From a virus: a stretch of DNA of 29,695 nt. The stretch lies in the IMG/VR virus record IMGVR_UViG_3300035698_004111, positions 1 through 29,695 of that record. One strand, written 5' to 3'. Below, piece by piece: positions 6,074 through 29,695 of the stretch (positions within the stretch are counted from its first letter, which is position 1; each line of letters starts with the position of its first letter). The notes under the pieces are model-generated. The model saw only the letters and a list, made by a program, of their open reading frames with translations, searched no databases and had not been told where the DNA came from. The position numbers were made by a program, and so were the translations under genes.

Positions 6074-7811
6074 CTATGTTGTGAATTCGGGGGTTATTAC
6101 GCCCGATGCGTCATTTATCGAGCAGCAAGTAATCGACGAGTACCGAGCGTTGTTTGGAGCGGATTTAGTAGTAACGCCTAACACGCCTCAAGGATTATTA
6201 ATACAAGCCGAAGTACAATCGCGTATAGCCCTTGCGGATAATAACGCGCGTTTAGCGAATCAAATAAATCCTAATTACGCGGGAGGCGTTTCTCTCGACA
6301 GTATCTTAGCGTTAACCAACCCTTTCGGTCGTGCAGCGTCTACCCCCTCGATTGTTTTCGCGACAATATCGGGAACGCCGGGGACTATAGTACCCGAGGG
6401 TTCGGTAGTCTCTGAAACGTCTACAGGAAGCGCTAATTTATTCGCAACGGTACAGCAAGAGACTATACCCGCAATAGGTTTTTTATCGTCGGTTCAATTT
6501 AATTCGGTTAATCAAGGGCCGATACCCGCGCCCGAAGGAAGCCTAACTCAAATAGTTACCGCTGTGCTAGGCTGGGATAGCGTATACGATTCTACCGAGG
6601 CCATTTTAGGTAACTTAACGCAAAGTGATTTAGCTGCAAGAATATATCGTTTAAACACGCTAGCAACGCAAGGCGCGTCAGTGGCACAAGCGATTATATC
6701 GGGTGTTAGTGCGGTTTCTGGCGTTAAAAGCATGACCTTTTTAGAAAATACGCAATCGTCAACCGACACGGTAGAAGGCGTTTTGATGGTCGCAAATTCT
6801 ATCTATGCGTGCGTTCAAGCTACGGATATCGGAATAGGCACAAATTCAACAGTAATCGGCACCCTTACGGGTACGGCTGCCACGGTTGTTCCTTCAGGAA
6901 CACAGGTATCAAGCGACGGAAACGTATTCGAAACGGTTAACACTGTGACTATCCCCACCAGTGGCGTTATTGATGTTCTATTTCAAGCGTTGCAAACCGG
7001 AGCTATTTCTTGCCCCGCGGGAACGCTGATAACAATAGTGACCCCCGTCGCGGGTCTTACGTCTGTCACTAACGCATTTGATACGGCAAACGTTCAAACC
7101 GTAGTAATCGGCACGATTTCGGGAACACCGGCCACGGTTGTTCCTGCGGGGTCGCAAGCACGCAGCGGGGCTTCTACGTTTGAAACATTAGCGAGCGTTA
7201 CGATACCTGCTTCAGGATTCATACAAACGACGTTTCAGGCCGTGATGGCTGGAAATATTTTAGCTCCTGCGGGGACGTTAACGGTAATAGCTACGCCCGT
7301 AGCGGGGTGGGATTCGGTTACTAACGACAATAACGAAACGAGCACCGGAGCGGTTTCTGCTATTGCGCTCGCGCTCGTTGCGAAAAAAAGCGCGGGGGCG
7401 GCTTACAATAATGGCCCAGGCGTTAACATTAGCGCCCAGGTAGTCGTGCCATTTAGTAACCAGGTCATGACGGTTCTATTTGACACTCCCGCGCCCATTG
7501 AAGTTAATGTTATCGTTAACGTAAGTTTTGTAAATTCAGTGCAAAATATTGTTCCCGTCGTCACTAACGCGATTTTAGATTACGTTAATGGGAATATCCC
7601 AGGCGTCGCGGGGCTTACCGTCGGGCAAAACGTTTCTAGTTTTGAATTAGCGGGGGCCGTTACTCGCGTTAACCCGAACATCTACGTACAAAGCGTTTTT
7701 ATAGCCGAGGCCCCGACGAACCCGACGGCTTCCGCACAGATACCTATTGAAGCTTACGAAGTTGGCGTAATCGAGGCGTTTAATATTATAGTTAACGTGG
7801 TTCCGTCATGA
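6060..7811 (+). CDS. Baseplate J-like protein with duplicated internal domains
   Basis: A 583-residue wedge protein of the Baseplate_J family. The N-terminus has the family pattern LVVTPNTPQGLLIQAEVQSR with NPNYAGGVSLDSILAL (about residues 36-85). The C-terminus (NVSSFELAGAVTRVNPNIYV, then IEAYEVGVIEAFNIIV) also fits. It is longer than the roughly 350-400 residues I expect because an ~84-residue beta module (GT-x-x-GTPATVVPAG ... AGTLT-x-x-x-PVAGWDSV) occurs three times: about 6354-6585, 6852-7073 and 7104-7323. The last two are adjacent and very similar, suggesting a recent duplication. It would bridge wedge and fibre attachment. The stop overlaps the DUF2612 gene. Confidence 0.8.
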   Translation: MPVYNYVVNSGVITPDASFIEQQVIDEYRALFGADLVVTPNTPQGLLIQAEVQSRIALADNNARLANQINPNYAGGVSLDSILALTNPFGRAASTPSIVFATISGTPGTIVPEGSVVSETSTGSANLFATVQQETIPAIGFLSSVQFNSVNQGPIPAPEGSLTQIVTAVLGWDSVYDSTEAILGNLTQSDLAARIYRLNTLATQGASVAQAIISGVSAVSGVKSMTFLENTQSSTDTVEGVLMVANSIYACVQATDIGIGTNSTVIGTLTGTAATVVPSGTQVSSDGNVFETVNTVTIPTSGVIDVLFQALQTGAISCPAGTLITIVTPVAGLTSVTNAFDTANVQTVVIGTISGTPATVVPAGSQARSGASTFETLASVTIPASGFIQTTFQAVMAGNILAPAGTLTVIATPVAGWDSVTNDNNETSTGAVSAIALALVAKKSAGAAYNNGPGVNISAQVVVPFSNQVMTVLFDTPAPIEVNVIVNVSFVNSVQNIVPVVTNAILDYVNGNIPGVAGLTVGQNVSSFELAGAVTRVNPNIYVQSVFIAEAPTNPTASAQIPIEAYEVGVIEAFNIIVNVVPS

Positions 7812-14807: not shown

Positions 14808-15893
14808 TCAATCCTTTTTTTTAAACACTCTCGAGGCGTTGGCCTCTTCAATTAATTTAAGTTTTCCCGAGGTTTTTTGTGAATAGGCTTTTAAAATATC
14901 GTCACTTAAACCGAGGCTTCTAGCTTTTAAGGGAGTTATCGCTTCGGGGGGTTTCGCTAAATTTAAACCCATAAGCTCGCCTAGGGTGATTACTTCCGCA
15001 GCGTCTTTTATCCAAATTTCGCGGCCTTGCCCCGATTCTAATTTAAAACCCACGACTCGCTCGCCTCGAGTAATCATAGACCTCGCTTGTTCTTCTAGCC
15101 CCGTCGTTCTCGCATCGAGTAATTTAGCAACCGCCCGCAAGCGCGTTAATTCTAATCCCGTTTGAACGGGCGTTAATTCTAAATTACCGTACCCTTTAAT
15201 AACGTCTAAGTCTCTAGATACGGTACGCTGCAACGCTGTGCACGCATGCCGCCCTAGGCAGTGAGAGCATTGAGGACTAGGAACGCAAAGCGCGTTTTCT
15301 TGCGACGCTAAAAACTCAGCGTCTTTTAATTTATCAATGTAGACCTGTACCCCCAAAACGCTAATTGTCCAGGAGCGCACAGGCCCCCCAACCGTATAGC
15401 ATCGGGGCTGTATAATAGTCATTTGTATGGCGTTACATTCTACGTTTTGAGTTATACCCGCTGCGTATTCGAGCATTTGCCAATTCTCAAAAACGTCTAC
15501 ATACCCGTGGCCGTATTTATAATCAAACACGTGTAACGTGTCGTTAACCACCAGCCAGCAATCCGGTGTACCCCAACACTCGGGATGCACGTTTGAAATA
15601 TCGACGCGCTCTTCGATATGTAGCTGCCCAGGGTCGTTACAAATCCATTTAATTTCATGCTCGTATAAATCCGCTCCTTCCCTCATTTCTTTAGTTATAG
15701 GCTCACCGTTTGGAGCCGTTTCGTAGTGTTCATAGTCACCTAATAGGTATCGCTGCGCTAGCCAATGCGCGGCCGTTCCTTCTCGGGACGCTTCGGATTC
15801 GATTGTTTCAGGATATTTCGCTTCTAGAGCGCGAGAGCCAGGGCAAGCAACGCGACGCGCTGCGCTAGACGGGGGTAAATTACTGTGCGGCAT
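14808..15893 (-). CDS. DUF2800 family Cas4/AddB-like nuclease
   Basis: A 361-residue PDDEXK-type exonuclease candidate. The N-terminus SSAARRVACPGSRALEAKYP carries C17; H43 lies in REGTAAHWLA. The nuclease core shows IEERV (E94/E95), GTPDCWLV (D111), FDYKYG (D124 and K126) and NWQMLEYA (Q139). A cluster C209-x2-C212-x5-C218 (CSHCLGRHAC) with C17 is the four-cysteine spacing that binds an iron-sulfur cluster in AddB and Cas4. It may process DNA ends for recombination-linked replication. The start overlaps the upstream gene by 14 bases. DUF2800 next to an ssDNA-binding protein and PolA is a recurrent phage cassette. Confidence 0.8.
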   Translation of the reverse strand: MPHSNLPPSSAARRVACPGSRALEAKYPETIESEASREGTAAHWLAQRYLLGDYEHYETAPNGEPITKEMREGADLYEHEIKWICNDPGQLHIEERVDISNVHPECWGTPDCWLVVNDTLHVFDYKYGHGYVDVFENWQMLEYAAGITQNVECNAIQMTIIQPRCYTVGGPVRSWTISVLGVQVYIDKLKDAEFLASQENALCVPSPQCSHCLGRHACTALQRTVSRDLDVIKGYGNLELTPVQTGLELTRLRAVAKLLDARTTGLEEQARSMITRGERVVGFKLESGQGREIWIKDAAEVITLGELMGLNLAKPPEAITPLKARSLGLSDDILKAYSQKTSGKLKLIEEANASRVFKKKD

Positions 15894-16536
15894 TAATCAC
15901 CTCTAACAATTTAGCTTTGACGGGGGGAACTAAATCGAGGCGAGTAGCCAACAACGGCAACGCAGGGATATTAAACGGTTTTAAAATCCCCACGAGTTGA
16001 TCGCGTTTTAACGTCCCTTCGGTAATCGCTTTTGTGACTATCGCCATTAAATCCGCAAGCCCCGACGCTAAAGCAGGGTCGTTATTAACGAGCGGTGCAG
16101 GGGGTAAGTTTTTAATCGCGGTTAGCTCGGCTTGAACTTCTTTAACTGTATCCGGGCTAATACCTCGGAGCTTTTTCCACGTGCCGTCTTTCATTTTTGT
16201 TTTAGTTTTACCATGTATCCGAAAATCCCAGGGCATCCCGTCGGTGTCTAACTCAACGCCTGGTACACTCGGTGCGACTGGTACACTCGGTGCGACTGGT
16301 ACACTCGGTGCGACTGGTACACTCGGCACGCTCGGCACGCTCGGCACGCTCGGCACGCTCGGTACGCTCGGTACGCTCGGCACGCTGGGGAAACGGTCTA
16401 TACCCATCCTATCCGCTACCCGTTGGGTGTGGTCTTCAATCGCTCGGTATCGGCTTAAATTTAATAAATAATCGCCCGTTGCGCGTAACGCTTCAGGGTC
16501 TAAATTTTCAACGTCGGTAATCTCTATTTTAATCAT
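15880..16536 (-). CDS. Replication-module protein with PSV-repeat linker
   Basis: A 218-residue protein, first gene of the leftward operon. The N-terminal ~50 residues ([20 protein letters not shown]) are helical. A PSV repeat linker follows, changing to PSVPVA units. Then comes [28 protein letters not shown] with [12 protein letters not shown], a motif I recall from uncharacterised proteins in proteobacterial phage replication modules. The C-terminal part is helical ([20 protein letters not shown]). No catalytic motif seen. It may act as an adaptor that links replication proteins. The ATG is preceded by GAGGCGAG and lies about 30 bases from the promoter. Confidence 0.6.
16262..16386. repeat. 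9/18-bp tandem repeats encoding PSV linker
   Basis: Three copies of an 18-bp unit GGTACACTCGGTGCGACT (16262-16315) are followed by 9-bp units: GGTACACTC, four GGCACGCTC, two GGTACGCTC and one partial. All are in frame and encode the Pro-Ser-Val(-Ala) linker on the minus strand. The pattern indicates expansion by slippage. Confidence 0.9.
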
Positions 16537-25141: not shown

Positions 25142-26755
25142 ATGCCGTTACCTGTAGATTTTAATTTTAAAAAGCCCGATTACGTAGAGGTTTTTAATTT
25201 ACGACTTGAAAACCTCAAACGGTTACGAAAAAACCCAAAGGCCTTTAATGGGCTAAAAACGTTTTATAAAGAGAATCCCGCTCAGTTCATTATTGATTGG
25301 GGTGTGACTTTTGACCCGCGAAACGTTGAAATAGGGCTACCCACCTTAATGCCGTTTTTATTGTTCCCTCGCCAAGAAGAGTGGGTTAAATGGTTTATGG
25401 AACGATGGAAAAATAAAGAACCGGGCGTTACTGATAAATCAAGAGAAATGGGGCTTTCGTGGCTAACTATCGCGGTTTCGTGCACCTTGTGTTTATTTAA
25501 CGAGGGCGTAGTTGCGGGGTTCGGCTCTAGGAAAGAGGAATACGTCGACAAAAAAGGCGACCCAAAATCACTATTATACAAAGCGCGTCAATTTGTCGCT
25601 AACGTCCCCGAAGAATTTCGGCCAGGATATGAAGAACGTAAACACGCGCCTTACATGCGTTTAGAATTCCCGCACACGGGCAGCATAATAGCGGGCGAAT
25701 CAGGGGACGGCATAGGGCGCGGGGCGAGAGCTAGTTTTTATTTTGTTGATGAATCAGCTTGGATGCCGCGCCCGGAGTTAATCGACGCGTCTTTATCTCA
25801 AACAACGAATTGTAGAATAGACGTATCAACACCCAGAGGCACAAATAATCCTTTTGCACGTAAACGGTTTGGGGGCGCGATTAGTGTTTTTTCGTTTCAT
25901 TGGCGCGACGACCCCCGAAAAGACCAAGCTTGGTACGAAAAAACGTGCAAAGATATTGATAACCCCGTGGTTATCGCCCAAGAAGTTGATCTAGATTATA
26001 GCGCGTCGATTGAAGGAATAGTTGTACCGTCGGCATGGGTGCAATCTTCGGTAGATGCTCATATTAAATTAGGGATCATACCTTCGGGAGTACGAAAAGC
26101 GGGGCTAGATATCGCCGACGAAGGGTCCGATAAAAACGCTTATTGCGGTAGATTTGGCATCTTAATAGAATTTATAGAGATGTGGAGCGGTAAAGGGGAT
26201 GATATTTATCAAAGTGTGGAAAAAGCCTTTACACTATCCGACGTTTTAAATTACCCGGCAATAGATTACGATGCTGACGGCCTGGGCGCTGGTGCTCGAG
26301 GGGATGCTCGAAAACTAAACGAAAAGAGAATAATGAAAATAGACGTTAACCCGTTTCGAGGGTCGGGCGAGGTCATAGATAAAGACGGAGACCCGTTTAG
26401 TTCCAACAAATTAGAGCGTTTTAAGATACGAGAGAATACCAGGACAAACGGTAACTTTTTTAAAAATTTTAAAGCCCAAGCGTGGTGGTCGTTGCGTCAA
26501 CGATTCGAAAAAACCTACAAATGGGTTAAGCAGGGTATCCCCTGCGACCCAGACGAAATAATATCAATCTCTAGTAATATTCAGCATTTATCCGCGCTAC
26601 TTTCGGAATTATCGCAGCCGACCTATACAGAGGACAAGGTAGGAAAAATAATTATTGAAAAAAAACCAGACGGGGGTCGTTCACCCAATTTGGCGGATAG
26701 TGTTATGATAGCTTTTGCACCGAAAAAACGAGAGCGTCGGAGTGCTTTTATATGA
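25142..26755 (+). CDS. Terminase large subunit (TerL)
   Basis: A 537-residue packaging motor. Signs: an atypical Walker [10 protein letters not shown] (residues 99-107), Walker B FYFVDE with D203/E204, and [10 protein letters not shown] (motif III). The C-terminal nuclease has [14 protein letters not shown] (metal-binding Asp), [14 protein letters not shown] and a last acidic site in [11 protein letters not shown]. It cuts concatemers and pumps DNA into the prohead through the portal encoded next. The ATG has AAAGG upstream. The stop overlaps the portal start by 4 bases (ATGA). The family is clear; packaging mode (headful or cos) cannot be read from the sequence. Confidence 0.9.
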
Positions 26756-28260
26756 TTAAACATTGGTTTAAACGATTTAAAAAAACGGAAATAGAAGAAA
26801 AACCCCCCGTTGTACAAAAACGAGAGCGTCCGGCCTACAGGTATAACGCCCCGCTCGACACGTCCGAACATGAAAAACTAGAGGCGTTTTGGGAAGCGAA
26901 TTTTAAAAACGCGGTGCACCTTGAAATTATGACCGATAAAAAAACACCGTTTGCAATTGATAGCCAGATAAATACAAAAAGCGGTTGGGGCGTTAATTCC
27001 GTTTTGCCCGAAACTCAAATTTTATGGTATGCACAACAGACGTTTATAGGCTATCAACTATGCGCGATGCTTGCCCAAAATTGGTTAATATCCAAAGCGT
27101 GTTTAATGCCTGCGAAAGATGCGACGCGAAACGGATTTGAACTTAGCGTAAATGACGGAAACGAAACCCCCCCCGAAGTGTTAGAAGCAATTAAAAAACT
27201 CGACATTAAATATAATCTTAATAAAAACCTAATTGAATTCGTGCAAATGGGTAGAGTTTTTGGCATACGGATTGCAATGTTTAATGTAGAAATGGAAAAC
27301 GAAATATTGCAAGATGAATTTTACGAAAATCCGTTTAACATTGACGCGGTAACGCCTGGAAGTTACAAAGGAATATCTCAAATAGACCCTTATTGGATAA
27401 CGCCACAGCTAGACGCAGAAGCCGCAGGGAATCCCGCGTCTATTCATTTTTATGAGCCCACTTGGTGGATAGTAAACGGTAAAAAAGTTCATAGAACGCA
27501 TTTAGTAATTTTTAGAACCGAAGAAGTAGCCGACATATTAAAACCCGCCTATATATTCGGTGGCGTTCCTATCCCTCAAAAAATAGCGCAACGGGTTTAC
27601 GCTTCAGAAAAGACCGCAGACGAAGCGCCCATGTTAGCTATGACTAAACGCCTGGACGTTATTAAAATGGATCTAGCTAAAGCTGAGATGAACCCCTATT
27701 TAGTAGCTAGCCGATTAACTGAATTTACTAACCGTAGGGATAACTACGGAGTAAAAACGATAGATTTAGAAGATGAAATAAGCCAATTTGACACTAGCTT
27801 AACTGATTTAGACGCGGTCATCATGACTCAATATCAAATTGTTGCGGCAGCGTCTAACGTTCCAGCGGTTAAACTGTTAGGAACGCCCCCAAAAGGTTTT
27901 AATAGTACGGGGGAATTTGAAGAGGCGAGCTATCACGAAGAGTTAGAATCTATACAATGCCACGACTTAACCCCATTTGTCGAAAGGCACCATCAATTGT
28001 TAATACGTTCCGATATCGCGCCTATGTTTAACGTTGAGCCGTTCGATACCATAATAAATTGGAACGAACTTGATTCCATGACTAATAAAGAGCAAGCCGA
28101 AATTAATAAAATGAACGCGGAAACGGGCGTTTTATTAACAACTTCGGGGGCAATCGACGGGGAAGACGAAAAAAACCGTTTACGAAATGATAAAAAAAGC
28201 GGGTATTTAAATTTAGTTGACGAAGAACCCGACGAAGAAGATTTGTTTATAGGAGAGTAA
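26752..28260 (+). CDS. Portal protein, DUF1073 family
   Basis: A 502-residue portal. Patterns include [20 protein letters not shown] and [20 protein letters not shown] (about residues 83-120). Further on are [34 protein letters not shown] and [20 protein letters not shown], typical of DUF1073 portals. The C-terminus is acidic. It forms the dodecameric ring at the head vertex and binds TerL. It directly follows TerL with a 4-base overlap, the canonical order. Some databases link this family name to the anti-CBASS protein Acb1, but length and context here indicate a portal. Confidence 0.85.
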
Positions 28261-28264
28261 CGTG

Positions 28265-28522
28265 ATGGATTTTAGCGAAGCGTTAACACGTATTAAAAAT
28301 GGGGCTAAATTAAAGCGTAGCGGTTGGCCTGACGGGGTTTTTGTATTTTTAGTCCAAGGGTCAGAATTTGAAGTTAATCGGCTGCCTCTAACCACTATAT
28401 TTAAATTAGGGGAACGGGTGAGCTACTCCCCCCATATTGATGTATGCATAGGTAAAAATATTTCAGTATGGGACGCGCAAACGTTAGATATTTTAGCAAC
28501 GGATTGGGATATTTATGTCTGA
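28265..28522 (+). CDS. DUF2829 / Tad2-like anti-Thoeris protein
   Basis: An 85-residue protein started at the ATG 28265, with AGGAGAG upstream; the GTG three bases earlier is possible. The N-terminus MDFSEALTRIKNGAKLKRSG, GVFVFLVQGSEFEVNRLPL, PHIDVCIGKN and the end WDAQTLDILATDWDIYV match DUF2829: FSEAL-x-x-x-K-x-G, the F-x-V-x-G-S-x-F-x-V-x-R-P/L-P-L segment, and W-x-x-S/T-x-D-I/L-LA-x-DW. DUF2829 includes Tad2, which sequesters the cyclic ADP-ribose signal of Thoeris; some relatives bind CBASS cyclic dinucleotides. It acts in the host cytoplasm. It overlaps the next gene by 8 bases, inside the structural operon. Which signal it binds cannot be told. Confidence 0.75.
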   Translation: MDFSEALTRIKNGAKLKRSGWPDGVFVFLVQGSEFEVNRLPLTTIFKLGERVSYSPHIDVCIGKNISVWDAQTLDILATDWDIYV

Positions 28523-29408
28523 CGTAAAACTATCTAAAAAACGCGCTAAGTGGGTAAAAAATAGAAGCGTTGGTTTAAAAGGCACAAATTTAGTATATAA
28601 TGCGTCTATACAAGAACGATACGTAATTGCGTTAGAACGCTTAGTAAAACAAATGACAAAAGAAACTAGAAAACAATTAACCGCGTTATTTAAGGGGGAA
28701 GCGTCCAGTGAGTTTTTCGAAAAACAAAAAGAACTTGAAACGATGGACTCTTCTATTTCCTCTCAAGCTAGAATTCTGGTTAATTCTCTCTCTCGAACGT
28801 TTGAAAAACTTTTTAATTTACGAGCTAGTTCCTTGGCTAAGGCAATGGTTGCGGCCACTATTAAAACGAGCGGTACAACAGTTAAAGAAAGTCTTAAAAA
28901 ACTTACGGGCGGCCTTACGCTAAAAACTACCATTGTGACTGAAGGCCAAGAAGACGTAGCGACCGCTTTAATTGCCGAGAACGTTTCGTTAATTAAATCT
29001 ATCCCCGAAGAGTATTTCACGGATGTGAACGGGGCGGTTATGCGCTCAATAACGACCGGAAACGGGCTAGCCGATTTAGTACCAAGCCTTGCAAAATATG
29101 AAGGGATAACCTACCGACGCGCTAAAAACATAGCGTTAGACCAGACACGCAAAGCATACAACGGGATAAACCGCCAAAAGCTGTTAGATAATAATATAAA
29201 ACAATTTGTTTGGAACCATAGTGGAGGCAGTTTACAGCCCCGGGAGTCACACATAAATATGTCGGGCGTAACGTTTAGCTTTGAAAACATAGAAAAGCAA
29301 CAAGCGGCTTTAGGTGTTCCCGTCAATGATAGAGGTTTTCCGGGCGAACCTGTAAATTGTAGATGCACTATGATCCCGATTATCGTTTTTGAAACAGACG
29401 ACGATTAA
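28515..29408 (+). CDS. Head morphogenesis protein, Mu F / SPP1 gp7-like
   Basis: A 297-residue minor head protein. The C-terminal part has the family signature: RAKNIALDQTRKAYNGINRQ, FVWNHSGGSLQPRESHINMS and FPGEPVNCRCTMIPI, with the GEPVNCRC motif diagnostic. The N-terminal ~180 residues are long helices rich in Lys and Ser (YVIALERLVKQMTKETRKQL). Such proteins associate with the portal and enter the head, perhaps going into the host. It overlaps the Tad2-like gene and is followed by the non-coding parS array, not by the scaffold/capsid genes expected next. Confidence 0.8.
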   Translation: MSDVKLSKKRAKWVKNRSVGLKGTNLVYNASIQERYVIALERLVKQMTKETRKQLTALFKGEASSEFFEKQKELETMDSSISSQARILVNSLSRTFEKLFNLRASSLAKAMVAATIKTSGTTVKESLKKLTGGLTLKTTIVTEGQEDVATALIAENVSLIKSIPEEYFTDVNGAVMRSITTGNGLADLVPSLAKYEGITYRRAKNIALDQTRKAYNGINRQKLLDNNIKQFVWNHSGGSLQPRESHINMSGVTFSFENIEKQQAALGVPVNDRGFPGEPVNCRCTMIPIIVFETDDD

Positions 29409-29457
29409 ACGATTAAGCGAAGTCTAGGCCGGCCAGCCGAAAACACCATGAAGAAAC
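29409..29457. other. Short spacer before the array
   Basis: This stretch holds the 8-bp palindrome GGCCGGCC (around 29428-29435) and no gene. No terminator hairpin with T-run is seen after the Mu F-like gene, so transcripts from the head operon may run into the array. Confidence 0.4.
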
Positions 29458-29474
29458 TCACGAACCGCAACGAA

Positions 29475-29566
29475 TGTTCCACGTGGAACATAGTCAAACG
29501 AACCGCAACGAATGTTCCACGTGGAACATAATCAAACGAACCGCAACGAATGTTCCACGTGGAACA
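29475..29566. promoter_or_regulatory. Three perfect parS-like sites (TGTTCCACGTGGAACA)
   Basis: The 16-bp perfect palindrome TGTTCCACGTGGAACA occurs at 29475-29490, 29513-29528 and 29551-29566, spaced 38 bp apart. It matches the bacterial parS pattern TGTT(C/T)CACGTG(G/A)AACA bound by chromosomal ParB. I found no other copy in this window. Host or phage ParB should bind here. Confidence 0.75.
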
Positions 29567-29591
29567 TAATCAAACGAACCGCACGCCCTCT

Positions 29592-29670
29592 ACGTGGAAC
29601 ATAGTCAAACGAACCGCACGCCCTCTACGTGGAACATAGTCAAACGAACCGCACGCCCTCTACGTGGAAC
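29592..29670. promoter_or_regulatory. parS half-sites in 35-bp units
   Basis: In the 35-bp units the right half GTGGAACA is kept but the left half has changed, giving CCCTCTACGTGGAACA. The half-sites start at 29592, 29627 and 29662, with the beginning of a fourth unit at the window edge. ParB contact through one half only should be weaker. Confidence 0.6.
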
Positions 29671-29695
29671 ATAGTCAAACGAACCGCACGCCCTC

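Follow-up and report, generated by a model that had tools for sequence, protein, structure and literature searches.

The ParB–parS pair is usually discussed as a system of chromosomes and plasmids. Among phages, P1 and the mycobacterial extrachromosomal prophages encode their own ParA and ParB, which have their own site specificity. For chromosomes, we take the parS consensus to be TGTTTCACGTGAAACA (PMC10197239). SGI1 carries parS mimics that exploit the ParABS system of its helper plasmid (PMC10954446). For phages lacking a ParB of their own, the papers searched gave a single cited precedent: the phi29 genome becomes entrapped in spores through host Spo0J (PMC9437464, citing Meijer et al. 2005). 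Here, we describe an array of parS-type palindromes in the virus record IMGVR_UViG_3300035698_004111. The window analyzed is the entire record of 29,695 bp, which is incomplete and roughly 10 kb short in comparison with its relatives. The phage is myovirus-like, and its nearest cultured relatives are phages of proteobacteria.

A tandem array of parS-type palindromes in a phage structural module

At the 3′ end of the window, the 16-bp palindrome TGTTCCACGTGGAACA occurs as three exact matches at positions 29475..29490, 29513..29528, and 29551..29566 (no strand assigned). The initial annotation had described three perfect palindromes at 38-bp spacing, 3′ of a Mu-F-like head gene, and had equated them with the bacterial chromosomal parS consensus. 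Exact matching bears out both points, the 16-mer fitting TGTTYCACGTGRAACA, which is the chromosomal consensus. The window thus holds the 16-bp palindrome of chromosome-type parS in three exact copies, situated between phage head genes and not near a chromosome replication origin.

Tandem-repeat detection delimits three units of 38 bp each on the + strand (29461..29574), in which the palindrome is intact and extends to the 18-bp palindrome ATGTTCCACGTGGAACAT. An array of three copies had been reported initially; the three intact palindromes stand, but the array is longer, with four further, degenerate units. These 35-bp units, recognizable from the sequence, follow on the same strand (29575..29695); in them, the left half-palindrome is gone and the right half, ACGTGGAACAT, is kept. 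Every unit opens with CGAACCGCA, at positions 29461, 29499, 29537, 29575, 29610, 29645, and 29680. Units 4 to 6 are mutually identical, each 35 bp long with the right half-palindrome only (..CTACGTGGAACAT), and unit 7 is truncated where the contig stops, the array filling the sequence up to 29695.

With up to three mismatches allowed, only the three exact sites match anywhere in the 29,695-bp window. Shuffled windows contained a mean of 0.11 matches, and none of 100 reached three. Perfect TGTTYCACGTGRAACA sites are expected at ≈3e-5 per 29.7-kb sequence of the window's composition, an estimate for which the three tandem copies, being duplicates, were counted as one event. The exact array unit had no other copy in the viral contigs or bacterial genomes scanned, and when the array was compared by similarity with phage and plasmid sequences, the palindrome itself was the sole matching part.

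The genes upstream confirm the location in a phage structural module. A portal protein gene (26752..28260, + strand; PF06381, E 7.5e-83), which served as a query for finding relatives, is followed by a small gene (28262-28519, + strand; PF11195, E 3.2e-14) resembling Tad2 (Thoeris anti-defense 2) and then by the Mu-F-like head morphogenesis gene directly upstream of the array (28515..29408, + strand; PF04233, E 1.8e-11; phrog_324, E 1.4e-63). About 50 nt separate the stop codon of the head gene from the start of the array. Elsewhere in the window, 9- and 18-bp tandem repeats (16260-16386) lie in a minus-strand ORF (15880-16536) and encode a low-complexity stretch rich in VPS.

Between the head gene and the array, 22 nt on the + strand (TCTAGGCCGGCCAGCCGAAAAC, 29423..29444) match exactly the 5′ half of an int-alpA RNA in a relative, L004, where they occupy the equivalent position downstream of the same gene; the stretch was matched exactly in one other viral contig only. 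The 3′ half of the int-alpA RNA is not visible in the window, an Rfam scan of the window gave no int-alpA match, and the fold shows no closing stem. The window therefore has 5′ 22 nt only, and not the complete stem-loop of the int-alpA RNA (RF02996). The array may have interrupted or replaced an int-alpA-like RNA. We also considered the array itself as a terminator or regulatory RNA and rejected this, as no T-run follows the intact copies, the folding energy is ordinary, and the Rfam matches are meaningless weak microRNA hits.

The same gap in related phages

Related phages were gathered by similarity of the head and portal proteins. A scan of these relatives for the palindrome, which the initial annotation had proposed as a check, found one perfect site in the same gap of L145 (IMGVR_UViG_3300019872_000005; 43,086 bp), a phage from another sample whose portal protein is 75% identical to that of the window. 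The L145 site is the only one in the whole record with two or fewer mismatches, and it begins at the first base past the stop codon of the corresponding head gene, within an 81-nt gap in which ≈8e-8 sites are expected. After the gap come a DUF2213 gene, presumed to encode the prohead protease, and then other capsid-region genes. L145 also has a gene (7531-7800) at the same place as the Tad2-like gene of the window, matching the same PHROGs.

Four further relatives (L004, L005, L006, and L007) have no parS site even with two mismatches allowed, and the site is therefore dispensable in the lineage. A one-mismatch site in L141/L142 was set aside because it lies inside the coding sequence of the head gene and is probably due to chance. 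In L004, the gap equivalent to the array (6909-7314) holds the int-alpA RNA (RF02996), which scores 35.7 bits, slightly below the gathering threshold. After it comes a short, cysteine-rich ORF that resembles HNH proteins on visual inspection and has no Pfam match. The head/capsid gap may be an insertion hotspot. The content of the gap thus varies, and parS is found there in two or more phage lineages, which makes it unlikely that the contig end is chimeric. We propose that the interval from the head gene to the capsid-operon promoter is where this lineage gains, multiplies, and loses such sites.

Searches for ParB, ParA, and integrase

The absence of an intact ParB or ParA gene, noted initially, holds in domain searches: no ParB_N domain was found in the incomplete 29,695-bp record, and no ParA-type (AAA_31) domain in that record or in three long relatives. 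Within the incomplete record, then, neither the ParB gene nor the ParA gene of a complete ParABS system accompanies the sites on the same replicon. ParB_N proteins do occur in relatives, where they lie near the small terminase gene and are 171 or 428 aa long. Those of L145 and L004 have 171 aa and no second Pfam domain, and the ParB_N of L005/L132 is fused to a DNA methylase. We rejected these proteins as segregation ParBs, since they comprise ParB_N alone or a methylase fusion only. Nor are they the partner of the site, because L004 and L005 have the protein without having parS. The earlier suggestion that the ligand may be a host protein gains support from a record that has neither a ParB_N nor a ParA-type domain, and host ParB is the most probable ligand.

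No Phage_integrase match was found in eight records searched, and the genes listed for L145 serve replication, packaging, tail formation, and lysis; from these two observations, the phage looks lytic. Partition of an integrated or plasmid prophage is weakened as an explanation by the lack of an integrase in the eight records; as to the partition module that a plasmid prophage would have, no ParA was found in the window and three long relatives. When bacterial genomes were searched with the head protein, no prophage relative came up.

parS-type sites in other viruses

At least 119 viral contigs carry two copies of TGTTYCACGTGRAACA 8 to 38 nt apart, and the same paired search with a core-swapped pattern (CACGTG to GTGCAC) returned no viral contig. 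The cluster is intergenic in 81 of the 119 paired-site contigs listed, and any ParB_N match was present in 6 of the 50 paired-site records checked. In a sample of the contigs, the sites are flanked by genes typical of phages, namely those for the large terminase, phi29-like tail knob and connector, the major head protein, the tape measure, and DNA polymerase.

A search of 50,697 public phage records for stretches of 17 nt or more gave 41 records with ATGTTCCACGTGGAACAT and 198 with ATGTTTCACGTGAAACAT, some of them redundant; two core-swapped controls gave 0 and 0. The carriers include phi29-like Bacillus phages (such as B103), phages of Gordonia, Microbacterium, Listeria, Lactobacillus, and Ruegeria, microviruses, and a filamentous phage, and Pseudomonas phage XD2 is a cultured carrier of the site. 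Escherichia and Salmonella are absent from the top organism counts (raw counts) of the matching public records; E. coli is among the hosts without chromosomal ParB. The absence of core-swapped palindromes implies that the exact parS sequence matters, and not palindromy. In single-stranded phages, the parS palindrome may act as a hairpin.

Two small genomes carry many sites. The filamentous bajarodino virus 3 (L238, PQ006097.1; 6.2 kb) has six perfect copies of TGTTTCACGTGAAACA, at 704, 740, 3041, 3583, 4380, and 5921. A 7.9-kb viral contig, L112, has eight perfect copies of TGTTTCACGTGAAACA between 6137 and 6460, mostly 38 bp apart; the period is the same as that of the window's array, and the spacers are unrelated.

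A group test centered on the large terminase (TerL) approached the sites from the protein side. Terminase relatives were fetched by protein similarity alone, and 75 had readable upstream DNA. Within 180 nt upstream of the terminase gene, 37 of the 75 have a perfect parS, or 41 with one mismatch allowed; the TerL query came from a site-bearing contig, whose close relatives do not count as independent. None of three control palindromes with matching symmetry occurred upstream of any of the 75 genes. In L010 and 28 further contigs, a parS pair 24 to 25 bp apart lies ≈78 to 38 nt upstream of the large terminase gene and ends exactly 38 nt before its start codon. The other TerL relatives have their sites at distances of 32 to 158 nt. 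The parS upstream of TerL is thus kept or regained while its position shifts, as would be expected of a selected protein-binding site.

Discussion

On balance, we think the array is probably a cis-acting centromere mimic that loads host ParB in order to position or retain the phage genome. Its observed basis consists of the sites themselves, their recurrence in the L145 gap, the finding of no segregation-type ParB or ParA and no integrase in the records searched, and the strong, sequence-specific enrichment of the sites in phages. Host ParB binding, clamp loading, and a benefit to the phage are what we infer from these sequence observations. Host ParB dimers would recognize the palindromes and be loaded as CTP-dependent clamps, which would then spread along the adjoining phage DNA. 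Host ParA, and probably SMC too, would then handle the phage genome like an origin region, such that it might be held, positioned, compacted, or co-segregated and passed on. The likely setting would be a slow or arrested infection, as in a carrier state or starvation.

Spreading ParB clamps might instead form a roadblock or insulator at a capsid or terminase promoter and time expression to the host cell cycle. The L145 site stops 8 nt short of a TTGAAA −35-like hexamer, and the promoter-like stretch before the DUF2213 gene (GATTGAAA ... ATA) is conserved in five relatives; the promoter-like match alone, however, is near chance (1 found versus 0.6 expected). The constant placement of the pair in the 29 TerL contigs suits a transcriptional element as well, whereas the widely varying distances in the other TerL relatives speak against a fixed promoter element. 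In other phages the site lies inside coding sequence, as does the perfect site in gene 15 of B103, and no promoter was seen in the window. We consider a transcriptional role unlikely.

The sites could also be a decoy, with replicating phage genomes soaking up ParB and disturbing host segregation or ParB-dependent processes to the gain of the phage. Such a function would require no ParB of the phage's own. Late infection would yield many copies of a multi-site array, and several viruses have arrays of four to eight sites (L112 and L065, for example). Many phages, however, have one or two sites only, few for titration, and L145 has a single site in 43 kb, and we doubt that titration is what the sites are for.

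That the sites belong to another DNA-binding protein, or that they are hairpin palindromes merely resembling parS, seems improbable. Each unit is able to fold as a 7-bp hairpin, but the stability of that hairpin is ordinary (z −1.4) and the intact copies lack a following T-run. Core-swapped palindromes of the same composition and symmetry, moreover, are absent from phages.

The initial annotation had also allowed for a phage ParB encoded outside the window. The record is incomplete, stops in the array, and misses ≈10 kb relative to its relatives, which leaves room for such a gene. The near-complete, site-bearing L145, however, lacks ParA and a segregation-type ParB, its only ParB_N match being the 171-aa protein that it has in common with siteless L004. 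This weakens the idea to the point that we hold it to be quite improbable.

An assembly artifact, or a chimera with a host chromosome or plasmid, could be suspected from a contig that ends within the array, with a junction near the 22-nt stretch common with the L004 RNA element and a unit absent from the other viral contigs and bacterial genomes scanned, but it is very improbable given that L145, which comes from a different sample, carries a perfect parS in the equivalent gap and that the position of the 22-nt stretch after the same gene in L004 assigns it to the phage lineage. The L145 site and the many unrelated parS-bearing phages argue both against an artifact and against the site being unique to this phage.

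Beyond a centromere mimic for host ParB at this locus, we tentatively suggest, a little short of an even expectation, that host-type parS without ParB could be a common and repeatedly evolved strategy in unrelated viruses (tailed, filamentous, and microvirus-like). The sites would plug viral genomes into host ParB, ParA, and SMC, often beside a capsid or terminase operon, and the array in the window would be an amplified case. Apparently, parS is far commoner on phages than the literature we searched suggests. That literature, largely without subscription papers, yielded no survey of host-type parS sites on phages, and earlier reports may exist. If many phages indeed carry host-type parS, many viral infections involve host ParB, ParA, and SMC, and a single 16-bp site would offer a handle on phage genome location, on persistence in the carrier state, and on whether phages disturb chromosome segregation. 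The idea is testable in cultured site-bearing phages, including Bacillus phage B103 and Pseudomonas phage XD2.

Comparison with known systems

The array shares its 16-bp consensus, letter for letter, with chromosomal parS of ParABS systems. Chromosomal sites are origin-proximal, whereas those in the window form a tandem array with 38-bp spacing among phage structural genes and have no adjoining parAB. The parABS systems of phage-plasmids (P1 and the mycobacterial extrachromosomal prophages) resemble the array in placing centromere sites on a phage genome; they differ in having their own ParA and ParB, neither of which was found in the window record.

SGI1 offers a closer functional parallel, as an element without its own ParABS that carries parS copies and draws on the ParB of another replicon for stability (PMC10954446). 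There, however, the ParB is that of a plasmid and the sites match the IncC parS, whereas here the sites are of the chromosomal type and the carrier is a phage.

With phi29 and Spo0J, as described in PMC9437464 citing Meijer et al. 2005, the likeness is that of a phage relying on the host chromosomal ParB for handling of its genome, and the phi29-like phage B103 carries a perfect site. The arrangement of parS on a phage genome without phage parAB is found both in the window, as an incomplete record, and in L145. The difference is that the phi29 case, in that same account, concerns entrapment in Bacillus spores, whereas here a tandem array is found in a myovirus-like phage and no sporulation is implied. 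The principle is already known from phi29, and the array in the window is a variant of it. As far as the searched literature goes, what is new is the tandem array in a proteobacterial-type phage, the reappearance of parS where the head and capsid genes meet, and the wide range of phages that carry parS but no ParB.
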